From Lutibacter citreus (GTDB lineage: Bacteria; Bacteroidota; Bacteroidia; Flavobacteriales; Flavobacteriaceae): a stretch of 64,000 nucleotides of DNA. The DNA lies in the NCBI RefSeq assembly GCF_003260195.1, contig NZ_QEIH01000001.1:372001-436000 (forward strand). Reading direction: 5' to 3'. Made by a program: the position numbers and the translations under genes. The notes beneath the pieces are model-generated. The model saw only the letters and a program-made list of their open reading frames with translations, searched no databases and was not told the DNA's origin. Positions 34,329 through 52,883 of this stretch are shown piece by piece; within the stretch, counting starts at the first letter, position 1, and every line of letters begins with the position of its first letter.

Positions 34329-36344
34329 TTATTTTACTCCGTGCATTAATTTTTTTAATACTGGATTTAATAAAATAGCAATTACACCAATAATTAAAGG
34401 CACAAAAGTAAAAATTAAAAAGAAAGTTGCTATATCATATTTAGCCGTAATAATATCAATCATAGCACCCATTTTTCCTGAAGCTTTATTACCAATAGCC
34501 AATGCTAAATACCAAACACCAAACATAAAAGCAATCATACGTGCAGGTACTAACTTACTAACATATGATAAACCAACAGGGGAAACACATAGTTCTCCTA
34601 AAGTATGGAATAGGTAAGCTAGAACGAGCCAGAGAATGCTTACGGAGGCTGTTGTTGCTCCTTGTGGAATTCCTGTAGCTCCAAAAGCTAAAAATGCAAA
34701 TCCAATACCTAAAAGAAACAATCCAATTGCATATTTATATGCAGGAGCGGGATTGTATTTACTTTCCCACCATTTTGAAAAAAGTGGTGCAAACGCAATA
34801 ATAAATAATGAGTTTAAAATTAAAAACCAAGTTGCCGGAATTTCAATTTCATTTTCTTTTTTTCGGACTATAGTTGCATTTATACTTGTATTTACATTTG
34901 CGGCTTGATCTTCAGATAGATATTTAAATTTAACACCCTTTTTATCTATATCAATAATTGAAAGCTTATCGTTAGTTAAAAATTCATTTGAAGACCTTAT
35001 TACCGCAGTTTTACTAGTAATAATAGCATTTTCAGGAGCTTTTGTTTCAGCAGTTATTACTTGTGGTTTATCTTCAGTTGTTTTAGAAATTTTATACGTG
35101 TTATAAGTAACTTCATATGAATAAGTATTAAAGTTGTTATAGATTTTCCAACCAACAATGGCCCATATCAGTACAAAACTAAATCCTAAAATTAAATTAG
35201 AAATTAAATACTTTTTAAAAGTTTGTTTAAATAGTAAGTATAAAACCCATGTAATTAAAGCAATAGGTACTACAGTTATTATAACATCAACAATATTGAA
35301 TATAAATGCGGCATTACCAGAAAGTATTCTATTTGTATAATCTTTTGCGAAAATACTCATAGATCCACCTGCTTGCTCAAATGAAGCCCAAAAGAAGATA
35401 ATGAAAAACGCAATAACAACTACGGCAATCATTTTGTCTCGTGTAATTGTACTATATCTTGCAATACGTGTAGCAATTAGTACTAAAAATAAAATGAGAA
35501 CAACAATAATTGTTTGCCCAGAAAAATCAAAATCACCAACACTTAAAATATTGAAATCTACAATTTTTGAAAGAGGATCATTAATTACCCAGGTTAATCC
35601 AAAAACAGCTACAATTGCAATTAAAATTTTATCTATTAATGTAAACGGATTTAATTTATCTTCAATTTCTGTATGATCATCAGCTTCAATTTTTTTGTTT
35701 GTAACATTAGGCTTGTTTCCTGCATCTCCAAAAATACCTTGTGCTAAGGTAAATTGTAATAAACCTAATAGCATAAAAATACCAGCTAAACCAAATCCCC
35801 AGCTCCACCCAAGTATTTCACCTAAATAACCACAAAGCATTATTCCTAAAAAGGCACCGGCATTAACACCCATATAAAAAATGGTGTAGGCTCCATCTTT
35901 CTTTTCTGGAAAATCCTTATATAAAATAGAAATAAATGAACTCATATTAGGTTTAAAAAAACCTGTTCCAATTACTAATAAAAGTAATCCAAGGTATAAA
36001 AATATTGGATTAGATTCTATGGCCATACTTGCATGACCAAGTGTCATAATAAGCGCACCAATAATAATTGCTTTTCTGTTTCCTAAGTATTTATCAGCTA
36101 AAGTTCCTCCAATAATTGGAGTTAAATATAGCAGTGCAAGATAGGTTCCGTATAATGCTAATGCATTTTCGCGTGGCCAATCCCAACCACCAATTCCTAA
36201 GGAACTTACCAAGAATAGTACTAATAAAGCACGCATTCCATAAAATGAAAAACGCTCCCACATTTCAGTGAAAAATAATACAAATAATCCTGATGGATGA
36301 CCTAATACTTGGGTTTCAAAAAATTCATTTTTTTCTTTGTTCAT
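34329..36344 (-). CDS. POT/PTR-family peptide:H+ symporter with a large internal domain
   Basis: This is a 671-residue proton-dependent oligopeptide transporter; the family is usually about 450-510. Signatures: FFTEMWERFSFYGMRAL (the ExxERFxYY motif), GGTLADKYLGNRKAI, and FYMGVNAGAFLGIMLCG. At about residues 400-500 there is an inserted soluble segment (from NNFNTYSYEVTYN to about VRKKENEIEIPATW), hydrophilic and rich in beta-prone residues, between membrane helices. It imports di/tripeptides by family. Two further POT/MFS genes and DPP-IV lie upstream on the same strand, with 11 bases to the next. Confidence 0.93.
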   Translation of the reverse strand: MNKEKNEFFETQVLGHPSGLFVLFFTEMWERFSFYGMRALLVLFLVSSLGIGGWDWPRENALALYGTYLALLYLTPIIGGTLADKYLGNRKAIIIGALIMTLGHASMAIESNPIFLYLGLLLLVIGTGFFKPNMSSFISILYKDFPEKKDGAYTIFYMGVNAGAFLGIMLCGYLGEILGWSWGFGLAGIFMLLGLLQFTLAQGIFGDAGNKPNVTNKKIEADDHTEIEDKLNPFTLIDKILIAIVAVFGLTWVINDPLSKIVDFNILSVGDFDFSGQTIIVVLILFLVLIATRIARYSTITRDKMIAVVVIAFFIIFFWASFEQAGGSMSIFAKDYTNRILSGNAAFIFNIVDVIITVVPIALITWVLYLLFKQTFKKYLISNLILGFSFVLIWAIVGWKIYNNFNTYSYEVTYNTYKISKTTEDKPQVITAETKAPENAIITSKTAVIRSSNEFLTNDKLSIIDIDKKGVKFKYLSEDQAANVNTSINATIVRKKENEIEIPATWFLILNSLFIIAFAPLFSKWWESKYNPAPAYKYAIGLFLLGIGFAFLAFGATGIPQGATTASVSILWLVLAYLFHTLGELCVSPVGLSYVSKLVPARMIAFMFGVWYLALAIGNKASGKMGAMIDIITAKYDIATFFLIFTFVPLIIGVIAILLNPVLKKLMHGVK

Positions 36345-36355
36345 ATTGAAAAGTG

Positions 36356-37837
36356 TTAATTACTTGCGTTCTTTAACTGTTTTTTTATAACGTAATCATA
36401 AAGTACTAGTCCAATAATTGTTAAAAAACCAATTACAGCAATAACGTACCAAATATTTCCAGGATGATAGTTATCCCAAACATGTTGTGTCATTTGATCT
36501 TGTGTCATTTGTAATTTATTAGCAGCTTGAGCGTAAAAATCATTTTTTGTAAATGTTTCACTTATTTCAGGTAATTCAATATTAATGTTTGAAAGCTCTT
36601 TTCTTATTAAAACTACTTTATCAGACATATTTTGATATAAATCTCCAGTAATCCATTTTGTTAATAAATTTGCAAATGCAATTGGAAGAAAATAAGTTCC
36701 CATATAAAGGGCTTCTTTTCCTTTAGGAGAGATTTTTGCTATATAATCAGAGAATTTTGGGTTTGAAGTCATTTCTCCAATTGCAAAAATTAATATACCA
36801 AATATTGTAAAGAATACATTTGACGTGTAAAAAGATAAAGCAATACCAATAACTGCAATAAAAATTCCAGTCATCATAGCATTAATTGGTTTCCATTTTA
36901 ATATAATGGTTGATACAATCATTTGTAGGATAACAATAAAAAATGCATCAAGATTTACAACCATTTCAGGGTTAATTCCACCATGTTTGTTTTTGAAAAA
37001 TTCAGCAATTGTAGGAGCGTAATTTGATAATGCTTCGTATAGAGGTTTTGTATTAACCCATTCCTCAATGAATACTGGTAACGTATAAAATAATTGATTA
37101 AACATTAACCAGAAACCAACCATTATTAAAAGTAGTAAGGTCAATTTCATATCAGAAAGCGCTTCAATAATATTTTTTATAGAATTAATGATTGTTTTTC
37201 CCAATGAATCTTCATTTTTTTCTCTATTTGGTTCTTTAAAAAAGAAGATTACTATTATTAAGTTAACAGCTATAGCTACTGTTGCCATGATAAATACAAT
37301 TCTCCAACCATATTCATCTCTTAATTTAGCAGAAAATAGTGGTCCAAAAAAACCTCCAATGTTTACCATCATATAAAATACTCCAAATCCAAAAGATGAA
37401 TTAGTTTCATTGGTAGATTTAGTAACAATTGCAGAGGCAACAGGTTTAAACATTGCAGCTCCAATTGCTACAATTAAAAACATTATAAAAACAGAAGAAT
37501 ATGAAGTGACTTCTCCCATAAAATAATAACCTATTCCTAATAATAAGTAAGCAATTATTAAAGATAATTTGTAACCTATTTTATCAGATATTGCACCAGT
37601 AACAATAGGTAATAAGTACAAAATAAAAGTAACATAAGACATTATTTCCCCTCTCTCAATATGAGAAAATCCTAATGCGCCTTCATCTGTAGAACCTGTT
37701 AAATAAAGTGCTAAAACAGCAAATAAACCATACCAAGCCCAACGTTCAAATAATTCCATTGCACTAGCAATCCAAAATGGTTGGGTGAACGATTTAAGAA
37801 GTCCAATAAACCCTAAATCTTTTTTTTCTGTACTCAT
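36356..37837 (-). CDS. Divergent POT/MFS-family transporter
   Basis: This is 493 residues with about 12-14 membrane helices. The first-helix motif is altered: AMELFERWAWYGLFAVLALY in place of TEMWERFSYYG, and the helix 2-3 loop reads TGAISDKIGYKLSLI. The Glu-x-x-Glu-Arg core of the POT proton site is kept (ELFER). A soluble segment at about 390-460 (WITGDLYQNMSDKVV and following) precedes the final helix. It belongs to the same minus-strand group as the two canonical POT genes, but its substrate may differ. Confidence 0.85.
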   Translation of the reverse strand: MSTEKKDLGFIGLLKSFTQPFWIASAMELFERWAWYGLFAVLALYLTGSTDEGALGFSHIERGEIMSYVTFILYLLPIVTGAISDKIGYKLSLIIAYLLLGIGYYFMGEVTSYSSVFIMFLIVAIGAAMFKPVASAIVTKSTNETNSSFGFGVFYMMVNIGGFFGPLFSAKLRDEYGWRIVFIMATVAIAVNLIIVIFFFKEPNREKNEDSLGKTIINSIKNIIEALSDMKLTLLLLIMVGFWLMFNQLFYTLPVFIEEWVNTKPLYEALSNYAPTIAEFFKNKHGGINPEMVVNLDAFFIVILQMIVSTIILKWKPINAMMTGIFIAVIGIALSFYTSNVFFTIFGILIFAIGEMTSNPKFSDYIAKISPKGKEALYMGTYFLPIAFANLLTKWITGDLYQNMSDKVVLIRKELSNINIELPEISETFTKNDFYAQAANKLQMTQDQMTQHVWDNYHPGNIWYVIAVIGFLTIIGLVLYDYVIKKQLKNASN

Positions 37838-37934
37838 TTTTTAATTTTTTTAAATTGAATTTATATGTAAAAAGCCCAAACAATTAAATGTATGAGCTTT
37901 TATTATAATTATATATGTTTAAAAGGTTGCCATT

Positions 37935-39428
37935 TTAATGAATTCCTTTCATTGCTTTATTTAAAAACGGAGACAGTAATAAAAGTACAACTCCAGATCC
38001 TAGCATAACCATTGTAATAAAAGGATACAATGCAAAATCATATTTTTCTAAAATGCTTTCTAGCATACCGGCCATATAATTACCTGCAGCAAAACTTGCC
38101 ATCCATAGTCCCATTACAACAGAAACTAACTTAGCAGGTGCTAATTTAGTAATCATTGAAAGTCCAATTGGAGATAGCATTAATTCACCTAAAGTTAATA
38201 AAGTATAAACGGTAACTAACCACCAAGGAGAAACTAAATTTCCAGCATCAGCTAAATTTGAAGCTTGTGTCATTACCCAAAAACCTAAAGCTCCTAAAAA
38301 TAATCCAAGAGCAAATTTAACAGGAGTACGAGGGTTCCAGCCTTTTTTATCTAACCAGAGCCACATTAAAGAAAATAATGTTGCAAATATTAAAATAGCA
38401 AATGAATTTACATTTTGAAACCAAGTTGCTGGCATTTCCCAGCCAAACATAACTCTATCAGTATTTTCTTTTGCAAACAAGCTAAAAGTACCACCAGCTT
38501 GTTCAAAACCAGCCCAAAAAACAATATTAAAAAGCGCTAGTACAATTATAACAGCCATTCTACTCCATTCGTTTGAGCCATTTGTTCCTTTAAAAATTAT
38601 AAAGGATAAGCTTATTATGATTGCAGCAAAACCAATGTATGTTATATAACTTCTAGCGGTTTCAGGTAAAAATCCCCAAACATAAATAAGTGCTAACGTA
38701 CCTAAAATTAAACTTACAGAATATATTAATATTGTAGACCAATCTTTACCATCTAGTTTAATTTTGCCGTCTGGAACACTTTCATGTAAGCCATTGTTCT
38801 CTAGAGTAGTTTCTCTATAGTTTAACCAAAGTACACCTACGATCATACCAATACCTGCGGCGAGAAAACCATACCCCCAGTTTACACTTTCACCTAAACC
38901 ACCGGCTATAAATGTTCCTAAAATTGCACCTAAATTAATCCCTAAGTAAAAAATGTTGAAACCAGCATCTTTCATTGGGTCGTTATCGTTGTAAAAAGAA
39001 CCTACTACTGTAGAAATATTTGGTTTGAAAAAACCATTACCAATAATAAGTACACCTAAACCAAAATGAAATAAAAATAAACGAGAGTCAGTGTCTAATG
39101 AATGATCTAAAAATGAACTAGCAGCTAATAAAAACTGTCCAACAGCCATTACTAACCCACCTATATAAACGGTTTTTCGCTGGCCTAAATATTTATCAGA
39201 AATCCATCCTCCTAAAATTGGTGTTAAATAAACCAACCCCGTAAAAATAGCATACATTTCTAATGCTTCTTCTCTATTTAAACCGAAACCATCATTAACA
39301 AGTTCTGCTGTTAAATACAATACCAATAAGGCACGCATTCCATAATAACTAAATCTTTCCCACATTTCTGTAGCAAATAAAGTATACAAACCTTTTGGAT
39401 GGGTTTTTCTAAATGGTATTTCTTTCAT
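37935..39428 (-). CDS. POT/PTR-family peptide:H+ symporter
   Basis: This is a 497-residue transporter of ordinary family length. The POT motif FATEMWERFSYYGMRALLVL lies at about 18-37, GGWISDKYLGQRKTVYIGG follows, and then FNIFYLGINLGAILG and SPIGLSMITKLAPAKLVSVV. It imports di/tripeptides with protons. It lies downstream of the DPP-IV gene, which makes dipeptides, so the two fit functionally. Confidence 0.95.
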   Translation of the reverse strand: MKEIPFRKTHPKGLYTLFATEMWERFSYYGMRALLVLYLTAELVNDGFGLNREEALEMYAIFTGLVYLTPILGGWISDKYLGQRKTVYIGGLVMAVGQFLLAASSFLDHSLDTDSRLFLFHFGLGVLIIGNGFFKPNISTVVGSFYNDNDPMKDAGFNIFYLGINLGAILGTFIAGGLGESVNWGYGFLAAGIGMIVGVLWLNYRETTLENNGLHESVPDGKIKLDGKDWSTILIYSVSLILGTLALIYVWGFLPETARSYITYIGFAAIIISLSFIIFKGTNGSNEWSRMAVIIVLALFNIVFWAGFEQAGGTFSLFAKENTDRVMFGWEMPATWFQNVNSFAILIFATLFSLMWLWLDKKGWNPRTPVKFALGLFLGALGFWVMTQASNLADAGNLVSPWWLVTVYTLLTLGELMLSPIGLSMITKLAPAKLVSVVMGLWMASFAAGNYMAGMLESILEKYDFALYPFITMVMLGSGVVLLLLSPFLNKAMKGIH

Positions 39429-39498
39429 ATTCTAAAAAGTTATTTTAATAGATTTTTACTTTTACTAAAGTACTATCTTAGTTGGTTAATAATTAAAT

Positions 39499-41667
39499 TT
39501 ATTTTATTTTTTCTCCTAAATTTTTCTCGATAAAAATAGTCATTTTATTATAAAGATGTAACCTTGTATTTTTACCTCTATAAATACCATGAGTTCTATC
39601 TGGATAAATGGCTTGTTCAAATGGTTTATTAGCTTCAATTAAGGCATTTGTTAAGCGCATTGTATTTTGTACATGTACATTATCATCTCCACTACCGTGC
39701 ACTAAAAGAAAGTTTCCTTTTAACAATGGTGCAAAGTTTAACGGTGAATTTTCATCATAGCCAGAAGGGTTTTCTTGCGGTGTTTGCATATAACGTTCTG
39801 TATAAATGCTATCATAAAACCTCCAACTTGTTACAGGAGCAACTGCTATTGCCATTTTAAAAGTATCATTTCCTTTTAATAAGCAATTACTAGCCATAAA
39901 ACCACCATAGCTCCAACCCCAAATTCCTATATTATTCTCGTCAATGTAGTTGAGTTTAGCTAATTCTTGAGTAGATTGAATTTGATCTAAAACTTCATAT
40001 TTTCCAAGTTCTTTATAAGTAACCTTTGTGAAATCACGTCCTTTTAATCCCGTTCCTCTACCATCAACACAAACAATAATATATCCTTTTTGTGCAAGGT
40101 GTTGGTACCAGTAATCATTATAATCGTTCCAACTATTACTAACAGATTGTGAACCTGGGCCAGAATATTGAGTCATAAATAGGGGATACTTTTTATTAGC
40201 ATCAAAATTTATTGGTTTTATCATCCAAGCATTAAAAGATCCATTCTTAGTTTCAACTGAAAAGAATTTTTTTTCACTAATCTTATATGCTTTAAGTTTA
40301 GTAAGTAAATCATTGTTATTAAGTACTTCTTTTAATAGATCTCCTTTTCCATTATGTAAAGTATAAATTGTTGGTGTATTTGCATCAGAAAAGGTGTTTA
40401 TGAAATAGTTTTTATTTTTACTAAAAGAAGCAGTATTTGTACCTTGAGAATTTGTTAGGCGTTTTTTATTTTTCCCATTTAATTTAATGGAATAAACAGT
40501 TCTATTAATTGATCCATCTTCAACAGATTGATAATAAAGTGTTTTGTTATTTTCGTTTACACCATAAAATTTAGTTACTTCCCAGTTACCAGATGTAATT
40601 TGATTTTTTAATTTTCCTTCACTCGAATATAGATAAATATGATTGAATCCATCTTTTTCGCTAGTCCATGTAAAACTATTATCTTTTAAGAAAATTAGGT
40701 TGTCATGAGTATTCACATATGCTTTTTCAGTTTCATTTAAAACAACCTTGGTTTCATCAGTTAAAGCATTTATAAAAAATAGTTTTAAATTATTTTGATG
40801 GCGATTTAAAGTTCTTGCACTTAAAATGTTAGAGTCATTTGTCCAATTAATTCTTGGGATATATTCATAATCTCCTAAATCAATTTTTGAAGTTTTTTTA
40901 GAATTTATATTATACATATGAAGCGTTACAACAGCGTTTTTTTCTCCAGCTTTAGGATATTTAAAAACTTGTTGAGTTGGGTATAAATCTGTACCTGTAA
41001 TATCCATTGAAAAAGTAGGGACTTCACTTTCATTAAATCTCAAAAAAGCAATGTGATTGCTATCATTACTCCATTCAAAAGCTTTTACAAAGCCAAATTC
41101 TTCTTCGTACACCCAATCACTAATACCATTTATAATTTCATTCTTTTTTCCGTCTGTAGTTATCTGTATTAGCTCTTTAGTTTCAAGGTTTTTAATATAA
41201 ATATTATTATTTTTTGAATAGGCTATTTTTTTACTGTCTGGAGAAAATGTAGGTTCCTGAATTCTTTCTTCATCCACTAAATGTAAACTTTTAGAAGCAA
41301 TATCATAAACATAAAAAATACCTAAGCTAGATCGTCTATAAATTGGTTTAGAATCTTTGCAAAGTAACAGTTTAGTTTCGTTTTTGTTAAATTGGTAGCT
41401 TTCAAAAGTATTTAAATAAGGTAAATCTTTACCATCAACAATTGTAGTTGTTTTTTCTAAAGTTTTATAGCTGTATTTGTCTATTGTTGAACTTTGTGTA
41501 GTTCTATTATAATTTAATAGTGTATAATAATCACCATTCATTGAATTTAAAGAGTTCATACGTTGAGTGCTAAACGTACCATTCCAAATTTCATCGATTT
41601 CTATATTTTTTTTTTGTGCTGTTACTAAGGAAGTTATGATAAAAAGTAGGTAAAAAAATTTCTTCAT
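39499..41667 (-). CDS. Dipeptidyl peptidase IV (S9 family), secreted
   Basis: This is 722 residues with a signal peptide (KKFFYLLFIITSLVTAQ), an N-terminal eight-bladed beta-propeller and a C-terminal alpha/beta hydrolase. The catalytic residues are Ser586 in GWSYGGFMA, Asp at about 661 in GSGDDNVHVQ and His693 in DRTHGI. The propeller carries the DPP-IV Glu motif DWVYEEEFGF, which holds the free N-terminus of the substrate. It releases X-Pro or X-Ala dipeptides from peptides in the periplasm. The genes for peptide transporters follow on the same strand. Confidence 0.96.
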   Translation of the reverse strand: MKKFFYLLFIITSLVTAQKKNIEIDEIWNGTFSTQRMNSLNSMNGDYYTLLNYNRTTQSSTIDKYSYKTLEKTTTIVDGKDLPYLNTFESYQFNKNETKLLLCKDSKPIYRRSSLGIFYVYDIASKSLHLVDEERIQEPTFSPDSKKIAYSKNNNIYIKNLETKELIQITTDGKKNEIINGISDWVYEEEFGFVKAFEWSNDSNHIAFLRFNESEVPTFSMDITGTDLYPTQQVFKYPKAGEKNAVVTLHMYNINSKKTSKIDLGDYEYIPRINWTNDSNILSARTLNRHQNNLKLFFINALTDETKVVLNETEKAYVNTHDNLIFLKDNSFTWTSEKDGFNHIYLYSSEGKLKNQITSGNWEVTKFYGVNENNKTLYYQSVEDGSINRTVYSIKLNGKNKKRLTNSQGTNTASFSKNKNYFINTFSDANTPTIYTLHNGKGDLLKEVLNNNDLLTKLKAYKISEKKFFSVETKNGSFNAWMIKPINFDANKKYPLFMTQYSGPGSQSVSNSWNDYNDYWYQHLAQKGYIIVCVDGRGTGLKGRDFTKVTYKELGKYEVLDQIQSTQELAKLNYIDENNIGIWGWSYGGFMASNCLLKGNDTFKMAIAVAPVTSWRFYDSIYTERYMQTPQENPSGYDENSPLNFAPLLKGNFLLVHGSGDDNVHVQNTMRLTNALIEANKPFEQAIYPDRTHGIYRGKNTRLHLYNKMTIFIEKNLGEKIK

Positions 41668-41831: not shown

Positions 41832-43103
41832 ATGTCAAAAACGGTTAACGGATTTTCTAAACTTTCAAAAAATGAAAAAATTGATTGGCTGATAGAAAAT
41901 TTTTTCGGGAATAGTTCTAAATCAAAAGAAATATTAAAACAGTATTGGAACGATACTAAAGAAATTCAAGATTTACATGACGATTTTATTGAAAACACTA
42001 TTTCTAACTATTATTTACCTTTTGGAATTGCACCAAATTTTGTAATAAATGGAAAGGATTATACCATACCAATGGCTATAGAAGAAAGTTCTGTTGTGGC
42101 TGCTGCTGCTTTAGTAGCAAAATTTTGGAGTAGTAGAGGAGGTTTTAAAGCTGAGGTTATTTCAACAGTAAAAATTGGACAAGTACATTTTATGTTTGAA
42201 GGCGATAAAGAGGAACTTCAACAATATTTTGATTTAAAAAAAGAAGATTTATTAAAATCTACTGAAAATATTACCAAAAACATGCGAAAGCGAGGAGGTG
42301 GTATTTTGGCTATTGAATTGCGAGATAAAACTGCTGAACTTAATAATTATTATCAACTACATGTTTCTTTTGAAACGGTTGATAGTATGGGCGCAAATTT
42401 TATTAATTCTTGTTTGGAGGCCATAGCAAAAGAGTTTGAAAACGATGAAATAATCGTAGTTATGAGTATTCTTTCAAACTACGTTCCAGAATGTTTGGTA
42501 AGAGCTGAGGTTAGTTGTAAAGTAGAGGATTTATACGTTGAGAATTCTGAATTTTTAGCGCAAAAATTTGTTCAGGCTGTTCAAATTGCTAATGTGGAGC
42601 CGCACCGAGCAGTGACGCATAATAAGGGTATAATGAATGGTATAGATGCCGTTGTAATTGCAACTGGTAATGATTTTAGAGCAATTGAAGCCTGTGTTCA
42701 TGCATATGCCTCAAAAGATGGTAGGTATAAAAGTTTGTCAAATGCTTCAATTGAAGATGGTATTTTTAAATTTTGGATTGAAATTCCTTTAGCTTTGGGA
42801 ACTGTTGGTGGTTTAACGTCACTACATCCATTATCAAAATTAGCAATGCAAATGTTAGGTAAACCTTCAGCAAGAGAATTAATGCAAATTATAGCCGTTG
42901 CAGGTTTAGCTCAAAATTTTGCAGCCTTAAGAGCCTTAACAACAACCGGAATTCAAAAAGGACATATGAAAATGCATTTAACAAATATTATAAAAGGATT
43001 GGGTGCAAGTGAAGCAGATAAAGAATTTTTAATTAATTATTTTCAAAATAAAACGGTTACTCATAATGCCGTTGTGGAAGCTTATAATAATTTAAGAAAA
43101 TAG
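41832..43103 (+). CDS. mvaA: Hydroxymethylglutaryl-CoA reductase, class II type
   Basis: This is 423 residues, the length of class II enzymes (Pseudomonas mevalonii type). It is a soluble protein with no membrane segment. Catalytic elements: Glu in EESSVVAAAALVAKFW (about 82), cofactor loop DSMGANFINSCLEAI (about 184), Lys in THNKGIMNGIDAV (about 262), GNDFRAIEACVHAYA (about 278), and the C-terminal His in THNAVVEAYNN (about 410). It converts HMG-CoA to mevalonate; the presence of mevalonate kinase and decarboxylase genes in the window points to a biosynthetic direction. The HAD gene follows after 10 bases. Confidence 0.95.
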   Translation: MSKTVNGFSKLSKNEKIDWLIENFFGNSSKSKEILKQYWNDTKEIQDLHDDFIENTISNYYLPFGIAPNFVINGKDYTIPMAIEESSVVAAAALVAKFWSSRGGFKAEVISTVKIGQVHFMFEGDKEELQQYFDLKKEDLLKSTENITKNMRKRGGGILAIELRDKTAELNNYYQLHVSFETVDSMGANFINSCLEAIAKEFENDEIIVVMSILSNYVPECLVRAEVSCKVEDLYVENSEFLAQKFVQAVQIANVEPHRAVTHNKGIMNGIDAVVIATGNDFRAIEACVHAYASKDGRYKSLSNASIEDGIFKFWIEIPLALGTVGGLTSLHPLSKLAMQMLGKPSARELMQIIAVAGLAQNFAALRALTTTGIQKGHMKMHLTNIIKGLGASEADKEFLINYFQNKTVTHNAVVEAYNNLRK

Positions 43104-43113
43104 GAGAAATTAA

Positions 43114-43803
43114 ATGAGAGATGTTAAAGTTATTGCATTTGATGCAGATGATACTTTGTGGGTAAACGAGCCTTATTTTCGAGAAACTGAACAGGCGTTT
43201 TGTAACTTATTGAAAGCTTATTTACCTGAAGAATCAATAAACAATGTACTGTTTAAAAATGAAATTGGGAATATTCCATTATACGGTTATGGCGTGAAAG
43301 GTTTTATGCTTTCTATGATAGAGACTGTATCTGAAATTACCAACAATTCGGGAGACCTAGAGTTGATTAACAAAACAATAGCCTTAGGAAAGGAAATGTT
43401 AAATAAGCCAATAGAATTAATAAATGGTGTTGAAAACCTTTTAAAAAGTTTAAATAGTGATTATAAATTGGTTTTAGCAACTAAAGGAGATTTGTTAGAT
43501 CAAGAACGGAAGTTAAATAAATCTGGTTTGGAAGAACATTTTCATCACGTAGAAGTGATGAGTGATAAGAAAAGCACTGATTATTCAAAATTATTAAAAA
43601 ACTTAGATTGTAAACCAGAGCATTTTTTAATGATTGGTAATTCTGTAAAGTCTGATGTGCTGCCTGTTTTAGAAATTGGAGCAAAAGCAATTCACGTGCC
43701 ATTTCATACCACTTGGGTACATGAAGAAGTTAAAGAAAACACCAATGGATTTGAATTTTTAAAAGTTTCAACTATTTCTGAAATAAGTAAGTTCTTAAGA
43801 TAA
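43114..43803 (+). CDS. HAD-family hydrolase
   Basis: This is a 229-residue phosphatase-like protein. HAD motif I is AFDADDTLWVNEPYF (nucleophile Asp and acid Asp) near residue 9. Motif II is LVLATKGD, Lys is in motif III (DKKSTDYSKLL), and motif IV is MIGNSVKSDVLPVLEIGAKAIHV. A helical cap lies between motifs I and II. It is cotranscribed with HMG-CoA reductase (10 bases) and probably with the GHMP kinase. Substrate unknown; it might act on a phosphorylated isoprenoid intermediate. Confidence 0.88.
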   Translation: MRDVKVIAFDADDTLWVNEPYFRETEQAFCNLLKAYLPEESINNVLFKNEIGNIPLYGYGVKGFMLSMIETVSEITNNSGDLELINKTIALGKEMLNKPIELINGVENLLKSLNSDYKLVLATKGDLLDQERKLNKSGLEEHFHHVEVMSDKKSTDYSKLLKNLDCKPEHFLMIGNSVKSDVLPVLEIGAKAIHVPFHTTWVHEEVKENTNGFEFLKVSTISEISKFLR

Positions 43804-43882
43804 TTTGCAAGAATCTATTTAAAGTTGGTAGCTGAACGTGAACGGAGTTGTAGTGATTTAAAATTTTGTGTTCAGTTTTTTA

Positions 43883-44836
43883 ATGTCAAAAAGAAAAAAT
43901 TACGATTTGAAAGAATTTTACAGTAACGGAAAATTATTACTCACAGGTGAATATTTTGTTTTAGATGGCGCAAAATCATTAGCAGTGCCAACAACATGCG
44001 GACAAGGTTTAACAGTTGAATCTATAAAAGAACCACAATTAGTATGGCAAAGTTTTACCAATACAGGAGAGATTTGGTTAGAAGCTATTTTCGATTTACC
44101 AAAACTACGTTTGTTTAGTGCAGATTTTGAAGCTACTGAAGATGGAGGGAACGATACGTTAGCTGAAAACTTAATGCAAATTTTAAAAGAAGTAAGAGTG
44201 TTAAATGCAGCTTTTTTAAATTCAAATAATGGTTTTTTGGTGAAAACAAATTTGACATTTCCTAAAAACTGGGGGTTAGGAACTTCTTCAACATTAATAA
44301 ATAACTTAGCAAATTGGGCAAAAGTAAATCCGTATAAATTATTGGAGAAAACTTTTGGAGGAAGTGGTTACGATTTAGCTTGTGCAGCCCATAATACATC
44401 TATTTTATATACAAAAAATGGGCTAAATCCAATTATTGAAAAGGTAGATTTTAATCCTTCGTTTAAGGAGCAATTGTATTTTGTGTATTTAAATAAAAAG
44501 CAAAATAGTAGAGAAGGAATTAAACGATTTAAAGAGTTAAAAGGGAATTTAACTTCAGAAATAAAAGATATTTCAACTTTAACAGATGCGTTTTTGAATT
44601 GTAATAAATTACTAGATTTTGAAAAATTGATTATTGAACATGAACAATTGGTTTCAAAAACAATTCAACTAAAAACAGCTCAAGATATTTATTTTTCAGA
44701 TTATTTTGGACAAACAAAAAGTTTAGGAGCATGGGGTGGTGATTTTATTTTAGCAACTGGAAATGATGACACATTAAATTATTTTAATAAAAAAGGGTTT
44801 CAAACTGTAATCCCTTATCAGGATTTAATAATTTAG
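43883..44836 (+). CDS. GYDIA-type GHMP kinase, candidate phosphomevalonate kinase
   Basis: This is 317 residues from ATG 43883 (a GTG lies 15 bases upstream). The N-terminal NGKLLLTGEYFVLDGAKSLA resembles the start of mevalonate and phosphomevalonate kinases. The ATP loop NWGLGTSSTLINNLA is at about 129-143 and the signature GGSGYDLACA (GYDLA here, GYDIA in the group name) at about 159-168. The third GHMP motif near the end (SLGAWGGDFILATG) is altered. It lies in the HMG-CoA reductase cluster, and the window has mevalonate kinase and diphosphomevalonate decarboxylase but no recognisable phosphomevalonate kinase, so this protein is the obvious candidate. That is an inference. Confidence 0.85.
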   Translation: MSKRKNYDLKEFYSNGKLLLTGEYFVLDGAKSLAVPTTCGQGLTVESIKEPQLVWQSFTNTGEIWLEAIFDLPKLRLFSADFEATEDGGNDTLAENLMQILKEVRVLNAAFLNSNNGFLVKTNLTFPKNWGLGTSSTLINNLANWAKVNPYKLLEKTFGGSGYDLACAAHNTSILYTKNGLNPIIEKVDFNPSFKEQLYFVYLNKKQNSREGIKRFKELKGNLTSEIKDISTLTDAFLNCNKLLDFEKLIIEHEQLVSKTIQLKTAQDIYFSDYFGQTKSLGAWGGDFILATGNDDTLNYFNKKGFQTVIPYQDLII

Positions 44837-49881: not shown

Positions 49882-49889
49882 TATCTTTG
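49882..49889 (+). promoter_or_regulatory. -7 box (TATCTTTG) of the mvaD operon
   Basis: This matches TAnnTTTG and would place the transcript start at about 49896. It makes the TTG at 49887 impossible as a start and supports the TTG at 49905. Confidence 0.55.
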
Positions 49890-49904
49890 TTCAAAATTTT
49901 TGTT

Positions 49905-50999
49905 TTGACTGAAACCGATTTCATTTTATCCAATTTTGACACAAAAAAAGCTTCTAATGGAAGTGTAATCTGGAAAACACCAAGTAATATTGCATTAGTT
50001 AAATATTGGGGGAAACAAGAACCTCAAATTCCTGAAAATGCTTCAGTGAGTTTTACATTAGATGCTTGTTTTACTTTAACTACTTTAAAATACAAGGAAC
50101 GTAAATCAGGTTCGAGTAATTTTAATTTTGAAGTTTATTTTGAAGGTGAAAAGAAAGAGGATTTTAAACCGAAAATTGAAACCTTTTTCAAAAGAGTAGA
50201 ACAATATGTTCCGTTTTTAAAAGATTTTGATTTTGTAATTGAATCTAGAAATTCATTTCCTCATAGCAGTGGTATTGCTTCTTCCGCGAGTGGTATGAGT
50301 GCTTTAGCGTTGTGTATAATGAGTATTGAGAAAGAGTTAAAGCCGGAAATAACAGATGGATATTTTAATAAAAAAGCATCTTTTTTAGCCCGTTTAGGTT
50401 CAGGTAGTGCTTGTAGAAGTATTGAGGGAGAATTAATTGTTTGGGGAAATCATAATGGTATTGAAGGGAGTTCAAATTTATTTGGTGTAAAGTACCCTTA
50501 CAAAGTACACAAAAACTTTAAAAATTACCACGATACTATTTTATTAGTAGACGAAGGAGAGAAACAAGTTTCAAGTACAATTGGGCATAAATTAATGGAA
50601 GGTCACCCATTTGCAGAGCAACGATTTAAACAAGCAAACGATAATATTTCAAAATTATCTGAAGTGCTTCAAAATGGAGATTTAAAACAATTTATTGCAA
50701 TTGTTGAAAGTGAAGCCCTGAGTTTACACGCAATGATGATGACAAGTAATCCTTATTTTATTTTAATGAAACCAAATACATTAAAAATAATTAACAAAAT
50801 TTGGGCTTTTAGATCAGAGACAAATAGTAACATTTGTTTTACGTTAGATGCAGGTGCAAACGTTCATATTTTATTTCCAGAAGTTGAAAAAGACGCTGTT
50901 AACAATTTTATAACAAGTGAGTTAATTCAATATTGTCAAGAAAATCATTATATTTGTGATAGAATTGGATTTGGGGCAAAACGATTATCCAAGATATAA
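49905..50999 (+). CDS. mvaD: Diphosphomevalonate decarboxylase
   Basis: This enzyme converts mevalonate diphosphate to isopentenyl diphosphate with ATP. It is about 364 residues. I chose TTG 49905 (TETDFIL) because a -7 box covers the earlier TTG and no ATG precedes the conserved core. Motifs: TPSNIALVKYWGKQ (about 26-39), the ATP loop FPHSSGIASSASGMSALAL (about 116) and RLGSGSACRSIEG (about 166) with its decarboxylase-type Ser/Arg. Mevalonate kinase follows after 5 bases and a UbiA prenyltransferase after that. Confidence 0.95.
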   Translation: MTETDFILSNFDTKKASNGSVIWKTPSNIALVKYWGKQEPQIPENASVSFTLDACFTLTTLKYKERKSGSSNFNFEVYFEGEKKEDFKPKIETFFKRVEQYVPFLKDFDFVIESRNSFPHSSGIASSASGMSALALCIMSIEKELKPEITDGYFNKKASFLARLGSGSACRSIEGELIVWGNHNGIEGSSNLFGVKYPYKVHKNFKNYHDTILLVDEGEKQVSSTIGHKLMEGHPFAEQRFKQANDNISKLSEVLQNGDLKQFIAIVESEALSLHAMMMTSNPYFILMKPNTLKIINKIWAFRSETNSNICFTLDAGANVHILFPEVEKDAVNNFITSELIQYCQENHYICDRIGFGAKRLSKI

Positions 51000-51004
51000 C
51001 ATCT

Positions 51005-51931
51005 ATGAAAGGACCACTTTTTTACGCAAAAATTTTACTTTTTGGAGAGTATGGAATTATTAAAGATTCTAAAGGATTAGCAATACCATATAATAGTTAT
51101 CAAGGAGCTTTAAAGAAGTCTGAGAAGTCTTCCGTAGAGGCCATAGAATCTACAAAAAACCTTTTAAAATTTTACAATTATTTAACTAAATTAGAAACTA
51201 ATTTGGTTGTTTTTAATTTAGATGAATTTAAAGCAGATGTTGAAGAAGGAATGTATTTTGATTCTAGTATTCCTATGGGGTATGGTGTTGGGAGTTCAGG
51301 AGCTTTAGTTGCCTCTATTTATGATAAATATGCAGAGAATAAGATAACTGTTTTAGAAAATTTAACAAGAGATAAATTGTTGAAATTAAAGCAAATATTT
51401 TCTTTAATGGAATCTTTTTTTCACGGTAAAAGTTCTGGTTTAGATCCTCTTAATTCTTATTTAAGTATTCCAATTTTAATTAATTCAAAAGATAATTTAG
51501 AGGCTACTGGAATTCCTTCTCAAAAAGAGGGTAAAGGTGCTGTTTTCCTATTAGATTCAGAAATTATGGGCGAAACTGAGCCTATGATTAACATTTTTAT
51601 GAATAAAATGAAAAATGAAGGTTTCAGAAAAATGTTAAATGAAGATTTTGCAAAACATACTGATGCTTGTATTGATGATTTTTTACATGGAAATGTAAAA
51701 TCACTTTTGGGTAATGTTAAAAGTTTATCAACGGTTGTTTTAGAAAATTTTAAACCAATGATTCCTCAACGATTTCATAATGTTTGGCAAAAAGGGATAG
51801 AATCTAACGATTATTATTTAAAACTTTGTGGTTCTGGTGGTGGAGGTTACATTTTAGGTTTTACACAAGATTTTGATAAAACTAAAGAGGTTTTAAAAAA
51901 TTTCAAACTAGAATTGGTATATCGATTTTAA
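51005..51931 (+). CDS. Mevalonate kinase
   Basis: This is a 308-residue GHMP kinase. The N-terminal motif KILLFGEYGIIKDSKGLAIP is at about 10-29, the ATP loop IPMGYGVGSSGALVASIYD at about 90-108, the SGLDPLNSYLS (Asp/His) region at about 144, and the last motif LCGSGGGGYILGF at about 274. It phosphorylates mevalonate. It is the second gene of mvaD-kinase-prenyltransferase; the neighbouring gene order makes mevalonate the substrate rather than another alcohol. Phosphomevalonate kinase activity cannot be excluded. Confidence 0.9.
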   Translation: MKGPLFYAKILLFGEYGIIKDSKGLAIPYNSYQGALKKSEKSSVEAIESTKNLLKFYNYLTKLETNLVVFNLDEFKADVEEGMYFDSSIPMGYGVGSSGALVASIYDKYAENKITVLENLTRDKLLKLKQIFSLMESFFHGKSSGLDPLNSYLSIPILINSKDNLEATGIPSQKEGKGAVFLLDSEIMGETEPMINIFMNKMKNEGFRKMLNEDFAKHTDACIDDFLHGNVKSLLGNVKSLSTVVLENFKPMIPQRFHNVWQKGIESNDYYLKLCGSGGGGYILGFTQDFDKTKEVLKNFKLELVYRF

Positions 51932-51947: not shown

Positions 51948-52883
51948 ATGGATTTATTAGAGATTTCAAAAAATAATAGTAAAAAGAATAGACCTTTATA
52001 TATTAAAATATTAAGTCTTTTTTCTGTTGTTCGTGGATATAATATTTTTTTAATTATTGTGGCTCAGTATTTAGCATCAATTTTTATTTTTTCACCTCAA
52101 AAATCATTAAAGTACGTTTTTTTAGATGTTCATTTGTATTTTATTGTCTTATCTACAATTTGTGTAATTGCTGGAGGTTACATAATAAATAGCTTTTATG
52201 ATTCAGAATCAGATAGAATTAATAAGCCTATAAAATCTAAGATTGATTCAATTGTAAGTCAAAAAATTAAACTTCAAATTTATTTTGTTTTAAATTTTAT
52301 TGGAGTTGGTATTGGATTGTTAGTTTCTTGGAAAGCTGGACTTTTTTTTGCTATTTATATTTTTGGAATATGGTTTTATTCGCATAAATTAAAAAAGTAT
52401 CCTTTAACAGGATTATTTTCTGTTGCTATTTTAGAAATACTACCTTTTTTTGCAATTTTTGTTTACTATAAAAATTTTTCAGATATAATATTTACACATG
52501 CAGCTTACTTATTTTTTATATTGTTAATTCGTCAATTAGTAAAGGATTTAGAGAGAATACAAGGTGATTTTGTTCAAAATTATCAAACAATAGCTGTAAA
52601 ATATGGGGAGCATTTTACAAAAATATTAATTACAATATTAGTTTTATTAACGTTAAATCCAATTTACTTTTTAATGAAATACCCGGAAATTGGCGGGATG
52701 CGATATTATTTTTATGGAAGTATTTTATTACTAACATTATTTGTAATTGGTTTATGGTTTTCAAAAACCAAGAAGAGATACAAGTACCTTCATTTAGTGT
52801 TGAAATTTTTAATATTTGCGGGAGTCTGTAGTTTAGCCTTAATTGATTATTCAGTAATAATTAACAAGTTATTAATTGGTTAG
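51948..52883 (+). CDS. UbiA-family prenyltransferase, probable GGGP/DGGGP-synthase type
   Basis: This is a 311-residue membrane protein with eight or nine helices. The first Asp-rich motif is NSFYDSESDRINKP (Asn81, Asp85, Asp89), and the second is KDLERIQGDFVQNYQTIAVKYG (Asp200, Asp207), where the middle Asp of the usual DxxxDxxxD pattern is replaced. It would transfer a prenyl group from a polyprenyl diphosphate to an acceptor such as geranylgeranylglyceryl phosphate, as in archaeal lipid formation. It is third in the isoprenoid operon, 16 bases after mevalonate kinase. The exact acceptor (glycerophosphate, quinone or haem) is not decided by the sequence. Confidence 0.82.
   Translation: MDLLEISKNNSKKNRPLYIKILSLFSVVRGYNIFLIIVAQYLASIFIFSPQKSLKYVFLDVHLYFIVLSTICVIAGGYIINSFYDSESDRINKPIKSKIDSIVSQKIKLQIYFVLNFIGVGIGLLVSWKAGLFFAIYIFGIWFYSHKLKKYPLTGLFSVAILEILPFFAIFVYYKNFSDIIFTHAAYLFFILLIRQLVKDLERIQGDFVQNYQTIAVKYGEHFTKILITILVLLTLNPIYFLMKYPEIGGMRYYFYGSILLLTLFVIGLWFSKTKKRYKYLHLVLKFLIFAGVCSLALIDYSVIINKLLIG

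Follow-up and report, generated by a model that had tools for sequence, protein, structure and literature searches.

A GYDIA-family GHMP kinase as the probable phosphomevalonate kinase of many mevalonate-using Bacteroidota

The window analyzed here, 64,000 nucleotides of the Lutibacter citreus genome (contig NZ_QEIH01000001.1; all positions below are those of the window), encodes HMG-CoA reductase, mevalonate kinase (MVK) and diphosphomevalonate decarboxylase (MVD), and raises the question which protein catalyzes the step between the latter two, i.e., acts as the phosphomevalonate kinase (PMK). In passages of a 2014 study (PMC4026382), Elizabethkingia anophelis and Flavobacterium branchiophilum are described as possessing all known enzymes of the mevalonate pathway but one, the PMK, which "seems to be missing"; a non-orthologous GHMP kinase is suggested there as a protein that could fill this role, and a homoserine kinase and a galactokinase gene are named. 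No PMK assignment for Bacteroidota was found in the titles and abstract openings of the searched literature, a scope that excludes subscription papers and KEGG, and "GYDIA" is not mentioned together with "GHMP kinase" in the literature searched. Judging from sequence and genome comparison, the GYDIA family kinase encoded in this window is, in all probability, the PMK with which a large share of Bacteroidota run the classical mevalonate pathway. The same role had been suggested in a sequence-only reading of the window, and this suggestion gains support because the gene co-occurs with the pathway, the gene order is shared among relatives, the searched alternatives are absent and role-specific residues are present; the activity itself is what we infer.

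The kinase gene occupies positions 43883–44836 on the plus strand (317 aa), from the ATG at 43883 to the end of the stop codon at 44836; the mechanically called ORF opens at a GTG at 43868. The protein scores 409.2 bits against the NCBIfam model NF040656 (GHMP_GYDIA, "GYDIA family GHMP kinase"; cut-off 225) and so is a full-length member of a family that is classed as a hypoth_equivalog and carries no function in NCBIfam; the PMK role is proposed here. The protein passes no Pfam cut-off, and GHMP_kinases_N (PF00288) does not come up even when E values as high as 0.1 are admitted. Nevertheless, three motifs and a predicted two-domain fold (AF2 model with pLDDT of 91.3; Foldseek E down to 1.4e-13 against GHMP kinases) place it in the GHMP kinase superfamily. 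Motif 1, which aligns with that of PMKs, reads GKLLLTGEYFVLDG (43928–43969, plus strand), with KLLLTGEYFVLDG present in the window kinase; the ATP loop, or motif 2, is NWGLGTSSTL (44267–44296, plus strand); the GGSGYDLA motif behind the family name (44357–44380, plus strand) includes the expected catalytic Asp at 44372–44374; and the altered motif 3, KSLGAWGGDF (44717–44746, plus strand), has the PMK-like form G-A-x-G-G-D. The sequence-only reading, which had seen here a GYDIA-type GHMP kinase with a motif 1 of the MVK/PMK kind and a changed third motif, is borne out in these respects. The closest named relatives are from Lutibacter, at no more than 84% identity, in a listing from which records of the same genome were possibly excluded.

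The motifs were read in 139 GYDIA ORFs, which represent 139 loci, certain genomes being counted twice (e.g., G419 as L192 and L209). WGGD of motif 3 is present in 138 of them, with WGSD in G401, and a Tyr follows GE of motif 1 in all 130 ORFs readable by pattern (the other 9 were unread). The distance between the ATP loop and the Asp of S-G-x-D is 23 residues in 135/139 ORFs and 25 in two (two unread), compared to 37–39 residues in all 12 reference PMKs and MVKs and 31–46 in the second kinase of the window and its relatives (9/46 unread). Because the GYDIA proteins are about 14 residues shorter in this segment, general models may miss them. GYDIA is a strongly diverged GHMP kinase that keeps the motif 1 Lys, the ATP loop, the S-G-x-D Asp and the PMK-type G-A-x-G-G-D.

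The HMG-CoA reductase gene mvaA (41832–43103, plus strand; TIGR00532, 314 bits, cut-off 260) lies upstream of the kinase gene, and the placement of the latter in the HMG-CoA reductase cluster by the sequence-only reading is confirmed, with the correction that in this genome a HAD-family hydrolase gene (43114–43803, plus strand; assigned by profile matches) intervenes. No relative of this hydrolase was found at E<1e-5 in 80 named loci, and it is probably outside the mevalonate pathway. Downstream, also on the plus strand, are the genes for MVD (49887–50999; TTG start as listed, the true start being perhaps later), a divergent MVK (51005–51931, hereinafter the neighbor kinase) and a UbiA-family prenyltransferase (51948–52883; PF01040, 84.8 bits). 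The presence of mvaA, MVD, MVK and UbiA that had been read from the sequence is confirmed, all on one strand, with a second correction: 5–7 kb separates the kinase gene from the last three, which are downstream of it. The MVD is recognized by TIGR01240 (155.8 bits, under the cut-off of 171.35), by PF22700 (114 bits) and by the motif NIALVKYWGKQ, and the neighbor kinase by TIGR00549 (62.8 bits, under the cut-off of 163), by hhalign and by a cation-site Glu; the AF2 model of the neighbor kinase is poor (pLDDT 62). Upstream of mvaA, at 34329–41667, are what we take to be three consecutive minus-strand genes for POT-like peptide transporters and, after them, a dipeptidyl-peptidase-like gene (39499–41667). 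In many named loci, relatives of these genes are again upstream of mvaA.

Whether a PMK is required depends on the substrate of the decarboxylase. The KYWGK motif is present in the window MVD and in all 48 further MVD ORFs that score over 60 bits, a set that leaves out the divergent MVD of G401 (KQWGQ). According to Table 4 of PMC3857490, mevalonate 5-diphosphate decarboxylases have Tyr18 and Lys21, whereas Leu, Met or Tyr replaces the Lys in enzymes acting on the 5-phosphate. By our own placement, KYWGK reads as the Tyr18/Lys21 pair. In addition, of 72 positions without variation among six reference enzymes encoded in PMK-bearing operons, the window MVD keeps 52, and it scores 155.8 bits with the diphosphate model against 83.3 with the monophosphate model, under the cut-offs of both. 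Given that the MVD has diphosphate-type residues, a PMK is needed. The proposed route would start with the conversion of HMG-CoA to mevalonate by the mvaA product, followed by phosphorylation of mevalonate to mevalonate 5-phosphate, presumably by the kinase encoded at 51005–51931. The GYDIA kinase would then convert ATP and mevalonate 5-phosphate to ADP and mevalonate 5-diphosphate, its substrate, product and mechanism being predicted ones, and MVD would yield isopentenyl diphosphate in the last step.

A decarboxylase acting on mevalonate 5-phosphate, with GYDIA as a GHMP-type isopentenyl phosphate kinase (IPK), would also account for a kinase that constantly accompanies MVD, and would fit the absence of a known IPK: none of 26 genomes has an IPK match over the cut-off, 25 of them have a weaker one, and the only match in the L. 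citreus genome is glutamate 5-kinase ProB. We consider this arrangement extremely unlikely in view of KYWGK and the higher score of the diphosphate model (both scores being under their cut-offs), and given that GYDIA resembles PMK. Neither component of the IPK route, an IPK gene over the cut-off or a phosphomevalonate-type decarboxylase, was found. The archaeal mevalonate route is not indicated either: AcnX-type phosphomevalonate dehydratase exceeds the cut-off in none of 27 genomes, with five weak partial matches, none of these in the L. citreus genome.

That genome (5.1 Mb, 99.98% complete) was also searched for other enzymes that might fill the step. GHMP_kinases_N has three matches, namely a galactokinase that adjoins a galT-like gene, a homoserine kinase that adjoins thrA- and thrC-like genes (both contexts assigned by eye) and the MVK-like neighbor kinase. 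The bacterial PMK model TIGR01220 has no match at E<=0.001, in a search that covered the bacterial type and left the animal-type PMK outside; as far as the bacterial type goes, this speaks to the canonical PMK elsewhere in the genome that the sequence-only reading had named as counter-evidence. The MEP pathway enzyme DXR is absent. Since no bacterial-type PMK, IPK, AcnX or DXR was found, the step after mevalonate 5-phosphate is not accounted for by any known enzyme covered in the search. Among the 24 GYDIA carriers of the phylum sample (see below), a single genome has a TIGR01220 match at E<=0.001, and this match is weak (G088, 21.7 bits). No HMG-CoA synthase was found in the L. citreus genome with PF08540, so the steps of the pathway there are incompletely accounted for; the same model has matches in 5 of 36 genomes, all five among the 25 GYDIA carriers, leaving 20 carriers with none. 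A divergent HMG-CoA synthase is encoded in one GYDIA genome (L225:928–2253; TIGR01835, 267 bits, cut-off 360).

The distribution of GYDIA was followed in a phylum sample of 178 Bacteroidota genomes and a class sample of 395 genomes, 40 of which are common to both. In the phylum sample, 24 genomes have GYDIA over the cut-off, with NF040656 matches below it at 34 bits in G159, where the match is the PMK of that genome, and at 23 bits in G035. DXR is present in 154 of the 178, and the remaining 24 are exactly the GYDIA carriers (20 are listed as DXR-negative; G037, G064, G158 and G162 are counted as such because they are missing among the 154 with DXR). An MVD scoring over 100 bits is found in 26 genomes, all 24 GYDIA carriers plus G159 and G066; weaker matches, of at most 36 bits and for the most part partial, were not counted, although 42 genomes with such matches exceed the cut-off of 27. 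Both G159 and G066 have DXR and lack GYDIA, and immediately next to MVD they encode a known bacterial-type PMK, whose 147 bits fall short of the TIGR01220 cut-off (165.7). In the class sample, 75 genomes have GYDIA only, 293 DXR only, five both and 22 neither. The Fisher p value for this exclusion, 4.8e-54, is uncorrected for kinship and, the genomes being related, overstates their independence. Families f40, f6 and f90 each include genomes with GYDIA and without DXR along with genomes of the reverse type, so the exclusion reflects more than one old split. The 80 class-sample carriers leave out G260 and G316, with matches of 19–20 bits.

MVD is present in all 82 GYDIA carriers in which it was sought, 78 from the class sample (58 plus 20, i.e., all of the 80 except G516 and G532) and four more from the phylum sample. 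This agrees with the co-occurrence with mvaD for which the sequence-only reading had proposed a check. The same reading had counted the presence of the gene in MEP-using relatives as evidence against the PMK role: none of the 24 phylum-sample carriers has DXR, and five of the 80 in the class sample do; in each of these five, MVD and GYDIA share a contig and are no more than 1.2 kb apart. In three genomes with GYDIA and MVD (G329, G445 and G452), DXR matches at E of about 1e-35, compared to about 1e-44 for most DXR of the class, and perhaps was acquired separately. No strong MVD was found in the 22 class-sample genomes with neither GYDIA nor DXR, where G331 has a fragment of 33.6 bits that abuts a contig end and G199 an 18-bit match; 17 of these 22 genomes are under 90% complete.

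GYDIA accordingly occurs with MVD and without another PMK, as far as the bacterial type was searched and apart from the weak match in G088. A pathway-linked kinase with some other role, in regulation or on another substrate, could show a similar linkage if the actual PMK were an unrecognized gene. The divergence of the family, the animal-type PMK lying outside the searches and the persistence of GYDIA beside an eroded MVD in G401 would fit such a role. With MVD accompanying GYDIA in 82 of 82 carriers and another PMK taking its place in the two MVD genomes that lack it, we regard this explanation as very unlikely.

The order of genes in relatives points to the PMK role as well. Among 58 carriers, all outside the family of L. 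citreus, 32 from 11 families have MVD downstream of GYDIA in the same orientation, the two matches being 36–1383 bases apart (28 of them within 409 bases); in 22 of the other 26 the two genes are on different contigs and in four they share a contig at a greater distance. Of 80 named loci, 71 have mvaA upstream of GYDIA in the same orientation, and at least two of the other nine are cut by contig ends. In 37 loci examined, the run IDI2-mvaA-GYDIA-MVD-MVK-UbiA was found in L182 and L204, the same run with one additional ORF in L184, and IDI2-mvaA-GYDIA-MVD-MVK in L200 and L211, where IDI2 was called by BLAST to a Streptomyces enzyme at 27–34% identity. A neighbor-type MVK is present in 47 of 48 GYDIA carriers tested, G401 being the exception, and in neither G159 nor G066. 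The latter two genomes encode an HMG-CoA reductase-mevalonate kinase fusion ORF (L162:4687–6963 in G159, 758 aa; L163:3647–5911 in G066) beside PMK and MVD, with DXR also present. The DXR-positive G401 has IDI2, GYDIA and MVD side by side (L207); its MVD has KQWGQ and a changed ATP loop, its GYDIA has SNYD in place of SGYD along with WGSD in motif 3, and no neighbor-type MVK was found. The pathway in this genome is perhaps decaying or repurposed.

With two GHMP kinases in the window, the assignment of the two steps has to be weighed. Profile-profile comparison with hhalign gives GYDIA a score of 92.5 against six PMKs (E 2.5e-12) and 69.3 against six MVKs (4.6e-9), and the neighbor kinase 88.1 against MVK (4e-12) and 37.9 against PMK (1.8e-4). 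With HMMs of six sequences each, GYDIA shows a near tie (mean 18.4 bits for PMK and 16.5 for MVK; PMK is higher in 16 of 24 and MVK in 8), and the neighbor kinase is clearly on the MVK side (6.1 versus 43.4 bits). NF040656, for its part, gives 35.4 and 28 bits with the two Bacteroidota PMKs, which are those of G159 and G066, has no match at E<=0.001 to the fused MVK, galactokinase or homoserine kinase, and weakly matches the neighbor family (best E 0.0009; 19 bits in L213). In a joint alignment of 25 GYDIA rows with small reference sets (6 PMKs, 6 MVKs), GYDIA has seven conserved positions in common with PMK and not MVK, and two with MVK and not PMK; the neighbor family has eight with MVK and two with PMK. 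Among the seven are the GAxGGD Asp and the Tyr that follows GE, and two of the seven are also found in the neighbor family. GYDIA has all the residues expected of an mvaK2-type PMK, namely GEY in motif 1, G-S-x-x-D and GAxGGD in motif 3. Conversely, it lacks both the cation-site Glu and the His after GE that are expected of MVK. In the relevant sections of PMC1851959, the cation-binding Glu of MVK is given as Glu193 in rat and Glu144 in Leishmania, and the His after GE as strictly conserved in MVK. This Glu, followed by HGxxSGxD, is present in 6/6 MVKs and 46/46 neighbor kinases, and in 0/6 PMKs and 0/139 GYDIA ORFs.

Some comparisons point the other way, toward swapped or shared roles in which GYDIA would be the MVK, or carry out both steps, and the kinase at 51005–51931 would be the PMK. 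TIGR00549, the MVK model, matches 22 of 24 GYDIA proteins in NCBIfam scans (best E 5e-10), compared to 5 of 24 for the PMK model TIGR01220 (best 0.0025) and two for the ERG8 PMK model TIGR01219, and the window kinase stays below the curated TIGR01220 cut-off (165.7 bits). In a PDB profile search, the M. jannaschii MVK comes first with 41.8 bits, no PMK being among the five matches; among the 50 Foldseek matches listed, MVKs come first, with the M. jannaschii enzyme near the top, and the Lin0012 protein is at rank 11 and the S. pneumoniae PMK at ranks 23 and 43. The His after GE is replaced by Tyr in the neighbor kinase in 19 of 20 joint-alignment rows, L216 being the exception. The hhalign pairing of the neighbor kinase with MVK and of GYDIA with PMK, the distribution of the cation-site Glu and the GGD against GGG in motif 3 all oppose a swap, which on balance we consider unlikely. 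Fold comparison was rejected as a discriminator, since it fails to separate PMK from MVK for GYDIA. In the phylogenetic tree, GYDIA forms its own clade on a long stem; the grouping with PMK is favored with branch support of 45/85, and AU tests reject neither the grouping with MVK (p 0.24) nor that with the neighbor family (p 0.33).

Compared to known enzymes, GYDIA shares with mvaK2 (TIGR01220) the GHMP fold, the motif residues listed above and a location beside MVD, and differs from it in giving no TIGR01220 match at E<=0.001 when the L. citreus genome is searched, in the shorter segment before the Asp and in its separate clade. MVK (TIGR00549) belongs to the same superfamily and has weak sequence and fold similarity to GYDIA, which in all 139 ORFs lacks the Glu and HGxxSGxD pattern. 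The animal-type PMK, which has the NMP kinase fold, catalyzes the reaction that is proposed for GYDIA, a GHMP kinase; the two folds are unrelated. We view GYDIA as a candidate for a familiar activity carried by a new and compact kind of GHMP kinase. In the part of PMC13412983 that covers PMK, the enzyme is described as known in two non-orthologous forms. It appears rather likely that GYDIA is a third evolutionary form beside the mvaK2/ERG8 GHMP and animal NMP-kinase forms, with an active site rebuilt through the near-fixed 14-residue shortening between the ATP loop and the Asp, a near-invariant K-Q-x-S and the GAWGGD loop, and that it is the hallmark kinase of a Bacteroidota pathway in which MVK and HMG-CoA synthase are likewise distant from families already known.

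The PMK role would close the gap noted for Flavobacteriaceae in the passages of PMC4026382. A family that owes its name to nothing but a motif would gain a function, and the isoprenoid-precursor route of many Bacteroidota would be complete. For annotators, GYDIA would serve as a marker gene that distinguishes mevalonate from MEP users in this phylum, and it would be a PMK distinct enough to be studied in its own right, as another answer to the same catalytic problem. A GYDIA kinase is also encoded on four Riemerella anatipestifer records of about 102–105 kb that are filed as plasmids in PLSDB (H21–H24).
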